From the NCBI GenBank assembly GCA_026388415.1, contig JAPLJV010000024.1, positions 1 to 43,793 on the forward strand: DNA of 43,793 bases, in the 5' to 3' direction. The translations under genes were made by a program, and so were the position numbers. This DNA comes from Deltaproteobacteria bacterium. GTDB taxonomy: Bacteria > Desulfobacterota > Syntrophia > Syntrophales > JACQWR01. Shown here piece by piece: positions 991 to 7,426 of the stretch (the stretch's first letter is position 1; each line of letters starts with the position of its first letter). The notes beneath the pieces are model-generated. The model did not search any database. It was not told the origin of the DNA and was given only the letters and a program-made list of their open reading frames with translations.

Positions 991-1075
991 TTGGCATAGG
1001 AAGCCAAAGCTTCCAGTGATTACGCATAGCAAGAATAGTAGCTCCACTGATACCGCATCATATTGTCTAAGAAAC

Positions 1076-1113
1076 AAAAAAATGGATGGCAAGGAATAAA
1101 TCCCCGCCATCCA
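1076..1113 (-). terminator. Intrinsic terminator of the candidate sRNA
   Basis: On the minus strand TGGATGGC pairs with GCCATCCA (8 bp perfect, 15-nt loop with further pairing potential GGGA/TTCC), followed directly by TTTTTTT. On the plus strand there is no T-run after the hairpin, so it works mainly for leftward transcription. Confidence 0.75.
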
Positions 1114-1255
1114 CCTTTATGTATACTGAAAGCTTATCCCACCAGCTTTCAGATTATCTGCAAGGGGGGGTCGGCGGGTGGAGAGGAGGGTAATAAAACC
1201 ACCCGCCGACTTAAAACGCTTTAAAAGGCCTTATTAAGCACATCGTCTTTCGCAT
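1076..1255 (-). ncRNA. Candidate sigma54-dependent small RNA (~180 nt)
   Basis: Predicted transcript from about 1255 down to 1076. It starts 12 nt after a -24/-12 promoter and ends in an intrinsic terminator. Three perfect hairpins are visible, in transcript order: arms 1199-1210/1170-1181 (12 bp GTCGGCGGGTGG and its complement, 17-nt loop), arms 1144-1152/1126-1134 (9 bp) and the terminator hairpin 1106-1113/1083-1090 (8 bp) followed by seven U. The first loop reads ACCCUCCUCU, complementary to a strong Shine-Dalgarno, and the stem is followed by a run of C. No open frame with a ribosome site lies inside. Together with the upstream palindromes and the adjacent sigma54 activator gene this suggests a trans-acting sRNA of the Qrr type. 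Transcription itself is inferred. Confidence 0.62.
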
Positions 1256-1265
1256 CGGGGAAGAG

Positions 1266-1282
1266 TGCAACATAGATGCCAA
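1266..1282 (-). promoter_or_regulatory. Sigma54 (-24/-12) promoter
   Basis: The minus strand reads TTGGCATCTATGTTGCA. GG (complement of 1279-1280) and GC (complement of 1267-1268) are separated by exactly 10 nt, matching the YTGGCAC-N5-TTGCW sigma54 consensus with one change (TTGGCAT). Predicted start is near 1255. Palindromes centred about 163, 233 and 253 bp upstream are at usual enhancer distances, and the AT-rich spacer between could bend. Confidence 0.65.
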
Positions 1283-1410
1283 CAATGGAAAACAGTTTTT
1301 CGGTGGGCTCGTTATTAATAATATATTAATGATTGCAGTGTATTGTGATAATAAAAAATAAATAAATAAGCTTGCCGATCGTCCATCTATAAATATTAGA
1401 CTATAAATGT

Positions 1411-1425
1411 GTGCGTAATATGCAC
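1411..1425. promoter_or_regulatory. Enhancer-like palindrome 1 (GTGC-N7-GCAC)
   Basis: GTGC at 1411-1414 and GCAC at 1422-1425, 7-nt spacer; extended form TGTGC-N7-GCACG. It is one of three identical half-site pairs between the activator gene and the sigma54 promoter and is the proximal site, about 163 bp upstream of the predicted start. Confidence 0.6.
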
Positions 1426-1480
1426 GCAACATTTATCTTATTTATAAAAAAAATGTTACATTATAGCTATATTTTCCTTT

Positions 1481-1495
1481 GTGCTTAAAACGCAC
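1481..1495. promoter_or_regulatory. Enhancer-like palindrome 2 (GTGC-N7-GCAC)
   Basis: GTGC 1481-1484, GCAC 1492-1495, 7-nt spacer; starts 70 bp from site 1 and 20 bp from site 3. Likely a dimer site of the Fis-type helix-turn-helix encoded 60 bp away. Confidence 0.6.
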
Positions 1496-1500
1496 GCTAT

Positions 1501-1515
1501 GTGCATATAGCGCAC
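1501..1515. promoter_or_regulatory. Enhancer-like palindrome 3 (GTGC-N7-GCAC)
   Basis: GTGC 1501-1504, GCAC 1512-1515, 7-nt spacer; extended to TGTGC-N7-GCACA. The 20-bp step from site 2 (about two helical turns) puts both dimers on the same DNA face, as in tandem enhancer sites of sigma54 activators. Confidence 0.6.
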
Positions 1516-1557: not shown

Positions 1558-3690
1558 TTAAAGGTGATTAAATGCCTCTTTTTTTAGTTCCCGCAGCAGT
1601 TTGTATCGGGAAATACCCAACAGCTGAGAAGCCTTGCTCTTATTACCGCCGCTGAGCTCCATGGCTTTGGCGATGATTTTTTCTTTGACATCCTTGGTGA
1701 TTCTTTCGGTCACGGCGTCGAAATCTATACCTTCGGTCGTTAAGACGGGTGAGAAATTATAAAGGGAGAATTGATCTTTTTCCTGGGTAGCGGTTGCCTT
1801 GATCTCCGCCGGCAGGTATTCCGGGGTGATGATGGTTTTCATATCCTGAACGATCATCACGCGTTCGATGATGTTCTTCAGTTCCCGGACATTTCCTGGC
1901 CAGGGATAGTTGAGCAGGGTTTGAGCCGCTTCCTTGCTGAATCCGGTGACCTTTTTGCCGAATTTATTATTGAATTCCTCCACGAAATATTGGGCCAAGA
2001 TAATGATGTCCTCGCTTCTTTCCCTTAAGAGCGGGACAAAAATAGGGACGACACTGATACGGTAATAAAGATCTTCGCGAAAGGCGCCTTCGGCAACCAT
2101 GCGGTTCAAATCACGGTTGGTGGAAAAGATAAAGCGGACATCTATCGGGATGTTATCTGTGCCGCCCAGACGGCGGACATAGCCGTCTTCCAGGACGCGG
2201 AGAAATTTTGCCTGCAGCGGCATGGTCATTTCGCCAATTTCATCCAGCAAGAGCGTGCCTCCGGTCGCGTATTCCAGTAGGCCGATTTTCTTTTTCCGGG
2301 CGTCCGTAAAAGCGCCCGCCTCGTAACCGAATAACTCGCTTTCCAGCAGCGTTCCGGGAATGGCCGCGCAATTGACATCAACAAAATGTTTGGAACGGCG
2401 GTTACTTTGTTTGTGGATTGCCCTGGCCAATAATTCTTTCCCCGTACCACTGGCGCCACGGATCAGGATGCTGGTGTTATGACCGGCAACCTCCTCGATC
2501 GTATGAAAAATACTCAGTATTTTATTTGATTTGCCGAGGATATTGTGGAATCCCAGCAGCCTGTCCTCTCTTTCCTTGAGATTGTCCACTTCCGTCTTCA
2601 GGGATATTGCCTCCTCGGAAAGCATGGTGTGCAACATGGCGTTGTCGTAAGAAGTGGCGGCATTACTCACCAGGACATCGAGAATTTTGACCTGTTCTTC
2701 TGCGAAGCTGCCAGACTCATTGGCCAGGTAGAGAACACCCTGTACCCTTTCTTTGATGCGGATCGGGAAGGCAATTTCCGAGGTATGGTCGCTAAACACC
2801 GGCACTGCGGAAGGGAGTAGCGACGACGCCTGCTTCCTGAGCACCATATTGGTGTCCATGGCTTTCTTGATGATGCTTTTTTCGATTTTGCCCTGGTATT
2901 CATCAATATTGCCGGGCATAAGCTCACCATTTTCATGGACGAGGCAGGGCTCATCTTTTCTTCCGGGGAGATAAAGCAGGGCCTTGCTTACTTTCATCAT
3001 CTTAACGGCATTGGTAATCAGAATTCCGGGGATGCGCTCGCTTTGAATGCCACTTAAATTCATTTCCGAGACCGCTTCCTGCAGGACCATCAGTTGGCGT
3101 ATTTTTTCCGTATCATTTTCAAAAAGCCGGGTATTATAGATGATGATACTCATTTGACTGGCAAAGGTCAAAAGCAGGCTTATTTCTTCCGGGAAGAATT
3201 TCGTTTTTTCCTTGCGCCACGCAACAACGGTGCCGATTACTTCGTCGCCAATTTTGAGGGGGGCGCAAAAAATGGAACCCCGGTCATAGATCTTGGTCCG
3301 CTTACGGTCTATTTCAGTTACCCGGGGATCTGTGGCCGCATCTTCAATGGCAATCAACTGGCCGGTTTTCGCAACCTTGGCGGGAATGCAGTCGTATTCC
3401 TGAATGTCCAGCGCCCGGTCAAAGGCCTCTTTGTCCTCTTCCGGACTGAAATTTTTTACCACGTATGTTTTAAGGTAGCGCTTACTTTTATCAAAAAGGC
3501 GAATGATGCCACGATCAAACCCGATTGCCTCTACCAGCTCATCGAGGATTTTGGAAAGCACTTCATCCAGATGGGAGGGGGCGGTCAGAAGTTTGCTGAT
3601 ACTGAAAATGCTTTTGAGCAATTTATCTTTATCCAGGAGCGGAGTGGCAGCACGGCGGGGGTCGTTGGGAATTGAAGTCAAGGTAGTCAT
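1558..3690 (-). CDS. Sigma54-dependent transcriptional activator (GAF-GAF-AAA+-Fis HTH)
   Basis: 710 aa. N-terminal GAF domains at about 28-190 and 205-355, a linker helix (355-380), AAA+ sigma54-interaction domain 385-630 and a Fis-type helix-turn-helix at about 680-703. Seen: Walker A GASGTGKE (412-419), Walker B LLLDE (480-484), WPGNVREL near 597-604 and a GAFTGA loop written GAFTDA (459-464). Such proteins hydrolyse ATP to open sigma54-RNA polymerase promoters from enhancer sites; the GAF domains sense a small ligand or redox state (FhlA/NorR-like architecture), here unknown. No receiver domain is present, so control is not by phosphorelay. It lies 7 bp after the cyclic-nucleotide-binding gene, and three palindromes plus a sigma54 promoter follow its stop codon, making these its likely targets. 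Confidence 0.92.
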   Translation of the reverse strand: MTTLTSIPNDPRRAATPLLDKDKLLKSIFSISKLLTAPSHLDEVLSKILDELVEAIGFDRGIIRLFDKSKRYLKTYVVKNFSPEEDKEAFDRALDIQEYDCIPAKVAKTGQLIAIEDAATDPRVTEIDRKRTKIYDRGSIFCAPLKIGDEVIGTVVAWRKEKTKFFPEEISLLLTFASQMSIIIYNTRLFENDTEKIRQLMVLQEAVSEMNLSGIQSERIPGILITNAVKMMKVSKALLYLPGRKDEPCLVHENGELMPGNIDEYQGKIEKSIIKKAMDTNMVLRKQASSLLPSAVPVFSDHTSEIAFPIRIKERVQGVLYLANESGSFAEEQVKILDVLVSNAATSYDNAMLHTMLSEEAISLKTEVDNLKEREDRLLGFHNILGKSNKILSIFHTIEEVAGHNTSILIRGASGTGKELLARAIHKQSNRRSKHFVDVNCAAIPGTLLESELFGYEAGAFTDARKKKIGLLEYATGGTLLLDEIGEMTMPLQAKFLRVLEDGYVRRLGGTDNIPIDVRFIFSTNRDLNRMVAEGAFREDLYYRISVVPIFVPLLRERSEDIIILAQYFVEEFNNKFGKKVTGFSKEAAQTLLNYPWPGNVRELKNIIERVMIVQDMKTIITPEYLPAEIKATATQEKDQFSLYNFSPVLTTEGIDFDAVTERITKDVKEKIIAKAMELSGGNKSKASQLLGISRYKLLRELKKEAFNHL

Positions 3691-3697
3691 AAATCTT

Positions 3698-4213
3698 TCA
3701 TGATTCCTTTAGAATCATACTCAGCACGGTCGTCAGTTTGACCGTATCTTCATCAGCTTTTCTCAAGCGTTCGCTTACAATGCCGGCCATATTCAGTAAA
3801 ATACGATATCCGAATTCAAAATCTGATTCCGCCAGCTTCAAAAAGTCTGCTTTTTTTATTTCGTAAAGGTTACAGTCAGTTACGGCGCGGACGGTGGCGG
3901 TCCTCTTCAATTCCTGCAGCAACGCTATTTCTCCAAAGACGGGATGCCGACCGGCGGCATCAAGACGGGTGAAGACCTTGTTCTTATCGGCGCTTTCGTC
4001 ATCGTCCATACCGGCCAAAATGAGCCTTTTGATTACCTCCACGGTTCCTTGCAGGATAATGTACATGCTGTCGCCCATCTCCCCCTCTTTCATGATTATA
4101 TCACTTGCGGAAAAGCGGACGGTGCGGCAGATATTCAGAACTTTCCCGATCTGATCGGGCGATAAACCTTTAAAAAGTTCCGTCTCTTGCAAAAGGGGGA
4201 TATTCATTTCCAT
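3698..4213 (-). CDS. Cyclic nucleotide-binding domain protein
   Basis: 171 aa, almost entirely one cNMP-binding domain (about 10-145). The beta-barrel glycines and the phosphate-binding cassette are visible as FGEIALL then KRTATVRA near 94-111, close to the FGE(L)ALL...RxAT signature, so cAMP/cGMP binding is plausible. There is no C-terminal helix-turn-helix of the Crp type; only about 25 residues follow the domain. It is therefore a stand-alone sensor module, probably cytoplasmic. Its stop is 7 bp before the sigma54 activator and its start 15 bp after the K+ channel gene, suggesting it modulates one of these partners. Partner choice is inference. Confidence 0.88.
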   Translation of the reverse strand: MEMNIPLLQETELFKGLSPDQIGKVLNICRTVRFSASDIIMKEGEMGDSMYIILQGTVEVIKRLILAGMDDDESADKNKVFTRLDAAGRHPVFGEIALLQELKRTATVRAVTDCNLYEIKKADFLKLAESDFEFGYRILLNMAGIVSERLRKADEDTVKLTTVLSMILKES

Positions 4214-4228
4214 TTCAAGGCTCCATTG

Positions 4229-5416
4229 CTAAATCTTCTGGTGCGGGGGCATGGTCCGGCAAAGCAGAACGGCAAAGTCCTCCCCGCTGATCAAGTATCC
4301 GTCTTCCGGATTGATAATTAACCTGGTTTCTTCTTTTTCATGCAAAAATTCCCTATTGGCCTCCTTGAGTTTTTCTCTGATAAAGACATCAATTGCCGAG
4401 GAGTCATTTGCCAGGAGATCGTTCAGCCGGACAGATTTTTTTTCCTGCAGAAAACCGATCAGGATGGCCTGCTGCTTTTCACGGTAATAACGAAATAGTT
4501 CACCGAAAGTCCTGCCGATAAACTGCCTGGGTATCTCAGCACGCCACAGTTTGTTGCTGTCGCCCAGGGACAGCATGCTGGAAAACAGGCGCGGTATGCC
4601 GGGCGAGTTGATAGCACTGGCCAAAAGAGATCCGACATGTTCCCCGCGGACAATAATTTCATCTACGTTGGCTCTCTTCAAGTGCGGCTTGTTTTCGACG
4701 TCCAGAAGTTCGGCGATGGTCTTGATAGAGGGGGCGAGCGATTTTATAGCCATGGCCGCCAACATGGTGCGCTCATCCAATCGGTCCTTGGCGTGCGTTC
4801 CGGAAGTATCCGCCATAATTAAGGCAAATTTCGCCTTGGTAATATTGGCCCGTAACAGAACGTCTTCATGGACATAATTGCCGCGGAGGAATTTGAGGTT
4901 ATGTTTGGCATACCTGAGCTTGAGGGAGTCAACCTCGTCAATGGAAAGTGCGTTGATCAGCACGATGCCTGTTTCTTTGGCAATGACAAAAGTAGCCAAT
5001 CCCTGCAAAACCTCTTCCGTGTGCTGATTCCAGCCACAAATGACGATATGATCCTTTTCTTTGATAGTTTCCAAGCCTTTTCCCTCCTTCAGCTTCTTTT
5101 CCACAAACATGGAGGCAATGGTGGCCGTGAGCAGGGACATGAGCCCCACACCGGAACAGATCAGGACCAATCCCACCAGCCGGCCGCCCAGCGAGACGGG
5201 ATATTTGTCGCCGTAGCCAACGGTCGCCATGGTCACAACTGCCCACCAGATGCCATCCCATAGAGAATAGATATTGGAATCACTGCGGACGTGTTCAAAG
5301 TAAAACACGCCGCCCGCGCTCAGGAAAATAACCACGAGTGCCACAACCAGCAACTGGAAGAAGTGCTCCCGGCACAGTAGCGATAAATATCTTAAGTATT
5401 TTGATATAATAGCCAT
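4229..5416 (-). CDS. Potassium channel with RCK (TrkA-N) domain
   Basis: 395 aa inner-membrane channel subunit of the two-TM MthK type. TM1 about 20-40, pore helix and selectivity filter TVGYGD at 65-70, TM2 about 78-102, then a cytoplasmic RCK domain starting near 125 (HIVICGWNQHTEEVL). The Rossmann glycine motif is CGWNQ rather than GxGxxG, as in MthK-type RCKs that do not bind NAD conventionally. The C-terminal ~100 residues (from about 290) form a divergent ligand-binding part. Four subunits would form a K+-selective pore gated by a ligand on the RCK ring. The gene sits 24 bp after fusA and 15 bp before the cyclic-nucleotide protein, in the block leading to the sigma54 activator. Confidence 0.9.
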   Translation of the reverse strand: MAIISKYLRYLSLLCREHFFQLLVVALVVIFLSAGGVFYFEHVRSDSNIYSLWDGIWWAVVTMATVGYGDKYPVSLGGRLVGLVLICSGVGLMSLLTATIASMFVEKKLKEGKGLETIKEKDHIVICGWNQHTEEVLQGLATFVIAKETGIVLINALSIDEVDSLKLRYAKHNLKFLRGNYVHEDVLLRANITKAKFALIMADTSGTHAKDRLDERTMLAAMAIKSLAPSIKTIAELLDVENKPHLKRANVDEIIVRGEHVGSLLASAINSPGIPRLFSSMLSLGDSNKLWRAEIPRQFIGRTFGELFRYYREKQQAILIGFLQEKKSVRLNDLLANDSSAIDVFIREKLKEANREFLHEKEETRLIINPEDGYLISGEDFAVLLCRTMPPHQKI

Positions 5417-5440: not shown

Positions 5441-7426
5441 TCACCGGTGGTCATAAGTGGAAAACAGCATGCTGAAGATGGCCCGGCCTTGCGTGGCCGA
5501 GCGCAGGTCGGTGGAATAGCCAAACATCGCCTTGAGAGGCACCCTGGCCTTTATTTCACTGATGGCCCCGCGCGGAGAAACGGCCTGAATCTCGCCCCGG
5601 CGGGCGTTGATGTCGCCGATCACCTCGCCCATAAACTCGGCCGGGGTAATGATATCCACCAGCATGATCGGTTCCAAAAGGACCGGCGAGGCCTGTAAAC
5701 AGGCGTCTTTAATGGCCGTGGAGGCGGCAATCTTGTAGGCCAGCGGCGATGATTCACCTTCCCGCAAAGAACCGCCCTTGATGATTATCTTGATGTCCAC
5801 GATGGGATAACCGCCCAGAACGCCGCTTTGCAGGGCTTCCTCGATGCCTTCGGCGATCGCTGCCTGATATTCCTCGGATAAGGACGGCAGTCCGTTGTCT
5901 GTCTTCCAGATTATCTCGTTGCCGCGACCCCGGGGGGCCGGTTCAATCTGAATGCGCACATGACCGAAGTGTTTCTTCTCCCCCAGCTCCTTTTCAAAGA
6001 AATTTTCCACTTCCGCCGGTTTCTGGATGGTTTCACGATAGACGACGCGCGGTTGGCCTACGTTGACATGGGCATTGAATTCCCTGTTCAGGCGGTCAAT
6101 GATAATATCCAGGTGGAGCTCTCCCATGCCGGAAATTACCGTCTGGGCCGTTTCATCATTGTATTTCACCTTGAGGGTCGGGTCTTCTTCCATGAGCTTG
6201 GCCAGGGCGGGCAATAATTTCTCCTGATCGGCCGAGGTTTTGGCCTCGATCGCCTGACTGATGACTGGTTCGTAAAATTCAATCGGTTCCAGGAGGATCG
6301 GATGGGCCTCGTCGCAGATGGTGTCTCCCGTCGTGGTCTCTTTCAGGCCCACGACGGCTACGATCTCCCCCGCCCCGGCCTGCTCGATTCTTTCCCGCTT
6401 GTTGGCATGCATCTTGAGCAAACGGGCCACCTTCTCCTTCTTCCCTTTGGTGGCATTATAAAGGTCGGCGCCCGATTGCACTCGCCCCGAATAGATCCTC
6501 AGGTAGGTTAACTTGCGGCCTTCATCCTGCATGATCTTGAAGGCCAGGGCCGCCAACGGCTCCTTATCGCTGCTGGAACGGCTTTCTTCCTGCCTGGTCA
6601 CGGGATTGGTGCCCTTAATCGGCGGGACATCCAGCGGTGATGGCAGATAATCCACGACCCCGTCCAGAATGGGCTGAATGCCTTTATTTCTCAGGGCGGC
6701 GCCGCATAAGACGGGCACTACTTTCAAGTCCAGAGTGGCCTGACGCAGCGAGGCCTTGATTTCACCGGCAGAAATATCGAGGCCGCTTAAGTATTTATCC
6801 GCCAGTGCATCATCTATTTCCGGCGGGATATCACCTGCCTGATAGGATGCCCCCTGGGTGTTATCTTCCCAGGTAATCAGTTGCTGCTCGATCAGATCAA
6901 TGACGCCGCCAAATCGCTCTTCCCGACCCAGGGGCATCTGGACAGCTATCGGGAGGGAGTTGAAGCGTTCTTTCATCATGGCGATGGTTCCCCAGAAATC
7001 GGCCCCCACCCGGTCCATCTTGTTGATGAAGGCGATCTTCGGCACGGCGTACTTGTCCGCCTGATGCCAGACCGTTTCGGACTGCGGCTCCACTCCGCCG
7101 ACGGCACAGAAAACGACCACTGCCCCATCCAGGACACGCAGGCTACGCTCCACCTCGATGGTAAAATCCACATGGCCCGGGGTGTCAATTATGTGAATTT
7201 CGTGCTTTCCCCAGTCGCAAGTGGTCACAGCCGAGGTGATGGTTATGCCCCTTTCCTGTTCCTGGGGCATCCAGTCCATCACCGCGGCGCCGTCATGGAC
7301 CTCTCCCATCTTGTAGGACTTCCCCGTGTAGTAGAGGATCCTCTCCGTCACCGTCGTCTTGCCGGCGTCAATATGCGCGACAATACCGATATTGCGGGTA
7401 AGGGAGAGTTTCGTTTTTTGCGCCAT
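5441..7426 (-). CDS. fusA: Elongation factor G (translocase GTPase)
   Basis: 661 aa. G1 AHIDAGKTT at 17-25, G3 DTPGHVDF near 81-88 and G4 NKMD near 135 are intact. Domain II follows and domain IV/V signatures (e.g. [14 protein letters not shown] near 640) are at the C-terminus. EF-G moves tRNA and mRNA on the ribosome after peptide transfer and helps recycling. It is about 30-40 residues shorter than classical EF-G and is not beside rpsL/rpsG/tuf, so it may be a paralogue specialised for translocation or recycling (spdEFG-like). AGGTGG precedes the ATG. It is co-oriented with GerMN upstream (56 bp) and the K+ channel downstream (24 bp). Confidence 0.93.

Follow-up and report, generated by a model that had tools for sequence, protein, structure and literature searches.

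A predicted sigma54-controlled RNA with anti-Shine-Dalgarno-like loops encoded behind a GAF-domain activator gene in Syntrophales

Several described systems resemble parts of the locus reported here. In the LuxO-Qrr system of Vibrio a structured sRNA encoded close to the gene of its sigma54 activator is driven from a sigma54 promoter preceded by palindromes, and additional copies in trans are governed by the same sites. LuxO belongs to the response regulators and its sites have the form TTGCAWWWTGCAA (PMC10162802), qrr1 is divergent from luxO (PMC8043402), and the Qrr RNAs use Hfq. In Desulfovibrio, also a former deltaproteobacterium, sigma54 EBPs lying close to a sigma54-driven ncRNA have already been listed (DVU0653, DVU0679 and DVU2359; PMC4641369), the first two being two-component regulators. 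NorR, which controls norVW, is a GAF-AAA-Fis activator with three enhancer sites (PMC2941729). The rhizobial RNA NfeR1 (alpha-r14) carries CCUCC anti-Shine-Dalgarno loop motifs on stems of variable sequence, and these loops were shown experimentally to silence mRNAs (PMC10746234). For NfeR1, LsrB serves as activator and NtrC as repressor, and the motif CCUCCUCCC is found in three loops.

The locus described here lies in a contig of a Syntrophales bacterium (JAPLJV010000024.1; the whole stretch analysed, 43,793 nucleotides, is called the window). In control logic, including the copies in trans, the window system is like LuxO-Qrr, yet it fails every feature of Qrr membership tested. The Syntrophales RNA is co-directional with the activator gene and lies behind it, and the layout therefore differs from that of the divergent qrr1 and luxO; a first-pass annotation made from the sequence, which had equated the two layouts, failed on this point. 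The sites read YGTKC-N7-GMACR (the symmetric consensus of the aligned sites) rather than TTGCAWWWTGCAA. Whereas LuxO is a response regulator, the window activator has GAF domains and no receiver domain, and scored 271 bits with the LuxO model against a cut-off of 800. Hfq was found in none of the five genomes searched, the controls being detected, and a small protein is often encoded between promoter and RNA. With the Qrr covariance model, as in the Rfam scan at large, the window RNA gave no match at the gathering score; weak matches (mir-483, IsrM, tmRNA) were rejected as chance.

The other comparisons are also partial. NorR drives enzyme genes, not an RNA, and the window activator, at 315 bits, did not meet the NorR equivalog cut-off of 476 and has GAFTDA where NorR has GAFTGA. 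Like NfeR1, the Syntrophales RNA has identical CCUCC motifs in its hairpin loops on stems of variable sequence; it differs in its sigma54 control, its CCCUCCUUU sequence, its C run and its architecture, and homology to alpha-r14 was not supported, there being no Rfam match. As EBP-ncRNA pairs have already been listed in Desulfovibrio, the principle is not new, and the first-pass remark that no described sRNA with this context was known had to be corrected. Novelty lies in the family of RNAs, in the site code and in the coupling with a small protein.

The features of the window are collected in Table 1. The three palindromes, the promoter, the three hairpins, the terminator and the absence from 1076-1255 of any ORF with a ribosome site, all claimed in the first-pass annotation, were upheld. 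The claimed distance of the palindromes from the predicted start (163-253 bp) also held, their centres lying 253, 233 and 163 bp upstream of the predicted start near 1255, as did the GAF sensors of the activator (Pfam). The proposed search for homologues beside orthologous activators was passed, promoter, palindromes and hairpins being conserved and the helices covarying. The proposed context of a K+ channel and a cyclic-nucleotide-binding (cNMP) protein held only in part: both genes are present in the window but are optional, whereas elongation factor G (EF-G) is the constant neighbour. Of the proposed co-transcription with these two genes, the K+ channel part is inferred from gene order only. 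A hidden ORF in the transcript was considered and rejected, the sole frame being 14 codons without a ribosome site.

Table 1 Features of the activator-RNA locus in the window
Feature	Position	Strand	Basis or remark
Putative upstream activating site 1, GTGC-N7-GCAC	1501..1515		exact; at most orthologous loci, site 2 is 20 bp away
Putative upstream activating site 2, GTGC-N7-GCAC	1481..1495		exact; conserved in most orthologous loci
Putative upstream activating site 3, GTGC-N7-GCAC	1411..1425		exact; 70 bp from site 2
Predicted sigma54 promoter TTGGCATCTATGTTGCA (-24/-12)	1266..1282	-	GG-N10-GC spacing exact
Predicted small RNA, predicted start to terminator	1076..1255	-	start inferred from promoter spacing, not mapped
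Conserved RNA core	1073..1211	-	covariance models R1 and R2
Hairpin H1	1170..1210	-	loop 1198-1182 UUUUAUUACCCUCCUCU bears anti-Shine-Dalgarno-like sequence
C7 run past H1	1164..1170	-	first C closes the H1 stem
Hairpin H2 (CUGAAAGC...GCUUUCAG)	1126..1152	-	8/8 pairs with compensatory changes across the family
Hairpin H3, intrinsic terminator then T7	1078..1118	-	window copy lacks the CCCUCC loop of relatives
Activator: GAF domain(s), AAA+ sigma54 interaction domain with GAFTDA loop, Fis-type HTH	1558..3690	-	Pfam
Cyclic-nucleotide-binding domain protein, optional neighbour	3698..4213	-	Pfam and locus comparison
K+ channel with RCK domain, optional neighbour	4229..5416	-	Pfam and locus comparison
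EF-G, constant neighbour of the activator	5441..7426	-	NCBIfam TIGR00484 above cut-off

Of 155 Syntrophales genomes searched (the class holds the identical 155 genomes), 71 contained the activator; covariance model R1 found the RNA in 86 of the 155. The two occur together: the RNA was present in 69 of the 71 genomes having the activator versus 17 of the 84 lacking it (Fisher p 8e-25). In one of the two activator genomes without RNA the locus (L041) runs off the contig; the other is G118, where an inserted gene displaced the arrangement (L031, L147). No RNA was found by R1 outside Syntrophales in about 380 genomes of the phylum sample. Note that the R1 training set, like the set of 37 RNAs used for the loop analysis below, was partly picked by motif search. 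Model R2 was trained without the window and the window's family; its sole match in the window was the RNA, with an E-value of 6.5e-26. Because the RNA recurs in dozens of related genomes and fits no known RNA family, it appears likely, from sequence alone, to represent an undescribed regulatory RNA family specific to Syntrophales. No sRNA or RNA-level regulon of Syntrophales was found in Rfam or the open literature searched, nor any description of this RNA in Syntrophus in the open-access literature searched.

The arrangement of sites behind the stop codon of orthologous activators is nearly constant. The first two palindromes are 20 bp apart in 45 of 52 clear pairs, the third follows the second by 58-81 bp (about 70 bp) in most loci, and the sigma54 promoter lies 145-256 bp past the second palindrome. 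A search with the pattern of the palindrome pair gave matches in 52 of the 155 genomes versus four for the reversed control. The best sigma54 site of each locus scored 11 or more in 94% of 68 loci versus 7.6% of shuffles, and in the window TTGGCATCTATGTTGCA at 1282-1266 was the top sigma54-like site beyond the activator stop. The recurrence of this near-constant spacing at orthologous loci places the arrangement beyond chance. It was absent behind the activator at four loci (L015, L028, L031 and L032). Within the 2.79 Mb genome of the window no second cluster of this kind was found; exact GTGC-N7-GCAC sites numbered 32 (23 for the reversed control). A wider regulon in this genome was rejected, the other exact palindromes being scattered and near background.

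The activator has the features of a bEBP, namely an AAA+ domain, a sigma54-contact loop, an HTH and a genome containing rpoN, although the loop is the GAFTDA variant. This variant was present in all 30 orthologues checked. In NorR the same change, G266D, frees the protein from GAF-domain control (PMC2941729), and thus GAF gating of the activator may differ; the GAFTDA regulator DVU2106 of Desulfovibrio is counted as active (PMC4641369). EF-G adjoins the activator upstream in nearly all loci in which that side was read far enough, whereas the K+ channel and cNMP genes are confined to the window's family and some others and are missing from many orthologous loci. The conserved -24/-12 promoter (GG-N10-GC) and upstream activator sites also fit a sigma54-dependent, bEBP-controlled RNA. 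Binding of the activator to the three palindromes and RpoN-dependent transcription from the promoter are nonetheless inferences, as there are neither binding nor transcript data.

The RNA region of the window folds into three hairpins with a z-score of -6.7, and none of 200 shuffles was equally stable. Across the family the order is H1 (a stem of some ten pairs whose loop ends in CCCUCCUUU), then four to nine consecutive C (C4-C9 in the 37 members), H2 with CUGA...UCAG, and the terminator H3, which in relatives often repeats the H1 loop design. In the window H3 is a terminator-like stem of 18 pairs. The three helices contain 94.7% standard pairs in 29 sequences, and 17 of the 26 pairs have two-sided (compensatory) changes versus 8.2 in shuffles and 4-8 when the partners were slid. 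A riboswitch or leader of the downstream gene was rejected for the window RNA, given that the neighboring gene (1-942, +) runs convergently, with a terminator in between. At two loci (L066 and L068) H1 is tandemly duplicated within the single locus.

In most orthologues a short protein gene lies between the promoter and the RNA (e.g., L030, L009, L016, L022, L052 and L126). The protein has about 60-95 residues with EYDFFL in mid-chain and FFLPD or FFLSE at the C-terminal end ("YDFFL ... FFLPD"). It matches no Pfam family and, judged from its charged composition, appears disordered. The ORF is missing from both genera of the window's family (the window and L006), where sites, promoter and RNA are kept, and the RNA is therefore the sole apparent product there. 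The same is true of seven further loci (L027, L040, L045, L048, L059, L070 and L071) in that they retain sites, promoter and RNA without the ORF. The first-pass view of an sRNA as the only product thus applies to the window's family and certain others, but not to all, since in most relatives the promoter also leads into the short gene; in those relatives the RNA could belong to a 3' UTR. In 17 of 44 small ORFs a GGAGG-like sequence lies just inside the ORF, not before it, and could pair with the RNA loops. At two loci from two genomes (L065 and L067) a UspA-like gene, identified by reading, replaces the small gene behind the promoter. A second structured 5' element of about 80-95 nt, GAGACC...GGTCTC, lies directly past the promoter at L009, L012, L039, L049 and others; at L025 a T run apparently follows it at once.

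Further copies of the RNA were detected in many genomes, on other contigs or far from the activator. The identical trio of sites, together with a sigma54 promoter, accompanies a large part of these unlinked copies, among them two additional ones in G154 and one in G072 that lies 1.4 Mb from the activator; such copies are the strongest argument for a functional unit under one activator. In one family (f19) the trio of sites with a sigma54 promoter was also observed before energy and ion-pump genes (L142, L143, L145, L149 and L151, at about 2000-2700 in each). The genes behind the trio encode the beta subunit of a Na+-translocating decarboxylase, a lactate permease, an ATP-grasp CoA-ligase-like protein, a [FeFe] hydrogenase-type protein and a carboxylase-like operon. 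They are the sole hint as to the signal, and point to energy and ion state.

Our preferred reading is that the window RNA is a Syntrophales-specific, sigma54-dependent regulatory RNA that probably acts as an anti-Shine-Dalgarno sRNA. We assign this reading a probability of about 0.66, in the absence of transcript, binding or target data. The conserved sites, promoter and structure, the trans copies and the tie to the activator are seen in the sequences; binding of the sites by the activator, transcription, anti-Shine-Dalgarno targeting and the signal are inferred. In this model the activator encoded at 1558-3690 would bind the palindrome trio that follows its own gene, and would be carried to RNA polymerase-sigma54 at 1282-1266 by looping of the DNA. 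The resulting transcript of about 180 nt would reach the terminator at 1078. The stable H1 stem would hold the loop CCCUCCU(UU) open beside the single-stranded C run, and loop and C run would pair, without Hfq, with the Shine-Dalgarno regions of trans-encoded mRNAs and thereby block translation initiation. The signal would probably be energy or ion state, because the activator gene is linked with EF-G and in many cases with a K+ channel, and the f19 sites precede ion-pump and energy genes.

The proposed mechanism rests on mimicry of the 16S rRNA anti-Shine-Dalgarno end by the loop CCCUCCU(UU) and the C run. As the assembly of the window's genome yielded no 16S 3' end, that of the other genus of the family, GGATCACCTCCTTTCTAAGG, was used. 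The sequence CCTCCTTT was present in 35 of the 37 family RNAs versus 0.9% of shuffles, although this is not a blind test, since the set had been chosen with a looser motif. A conserved CCUCC motif in unpaired hairpin loops, a feature of the anti-Shine-Dalgarno loop class of sRNAs, is present. The window copy is a weaker example: its H1 loop is CCCUCCUCU, with a match of just 6 nt to the 16S tail, a C7 run follows, and H3 lacks an anti-Shine-Dalgarno loop, leaving a single such loop. If the reading is correct, this would be a further case, outside rhizobia, of hairpin loops copying the ribosomal anti-Shine-Dalgarno sequence, apparently without Hfq. Syntrophales exist close to the energy limit and have a key role as methanogen partners. 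The activator, sites, promoter and covarying RNA, readable from dozens of genomes, constitute a testable circuit, together with a site consensus that reaches ion-pump and energy genes in one family and an undescribed small-protein family sharing the transcript.

The most serious rival is that the RNA works in cis, as the 3' UTR of the small-protein mRNA, in stability, termination or translation control, and is a leftover in the window's family following gene loss. The position of the ORF between promoter and RNA in most orthologues and the GGAGG-like sequences inside 17 of the 44 ORFs favor this explanation. However, sites, promoter and RNA persist in the absence of the ORF in the window, L006 and the seven loci given above, the window nevertheless has an R2 hit at E 6.5e-26, and in G099 a copy of the RNA lies directly behind EF-G with no such ORF seen. 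We consider the 3' UTR explanation unlikely. Less probable still is that the 16S-like loops titrate an initiation factor or RNA-binding protein, or bind the ribosome, much as CsrB does for CsrA, rather than pair with mRNAs. Titration would fit the presence in many members of several identical loops, each carried by a very stable stem, the constant EF-G link and the failure to find Hfq in five genomes, but no protein partner is known, the loop sequence exactly suits pairing with Shine-Dalgarno regions, and CsrA motifs (GGA in loops) are missing from the loops.

The possibility that the region is only a strong terminator plus DNA-level regulatory sites, with hairpins that stop read-through and have no RNA function, is all but excluded. 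Although H3 is a good intrinsic terminator, H1 and H2 lie upstream of it and are conserved with covariation, the loop sequence is conserved in addition to the stems, further copies of the unit exist in trans, and L066 and L068 have a duplicated H1. A bolder version of the sRNA reading can also be stated, in which the RNA is a global translation brake that imitates the 16S rRNA 3' end in one or two loops and is switched on by the EF-G-linked activator at membrane energy collapse, acting jointly with the disordered small protein, whose paired FF motifs would contact an unknown partner. Syntrophic bacteria would then have a slow-growth program of their own, but we regard this version as improbable and retain the more limited anti-Shine-Dalgarno sRNA reading.

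Some RNA copies were found in other settings. Second copies without palindromes lie behind an NtrC-type response regulator (L114, L120, L125, L130 and L131). Between regulator and RNA, ahead of these copies, there is a conserved site, TGGCACGATTTGTGAA (TGGCAC...TGTGAA), in which the GC at -12 is missing. The G099 copy behind EF-G (L119, 267-2640) is in a genome in which the activator was not found.
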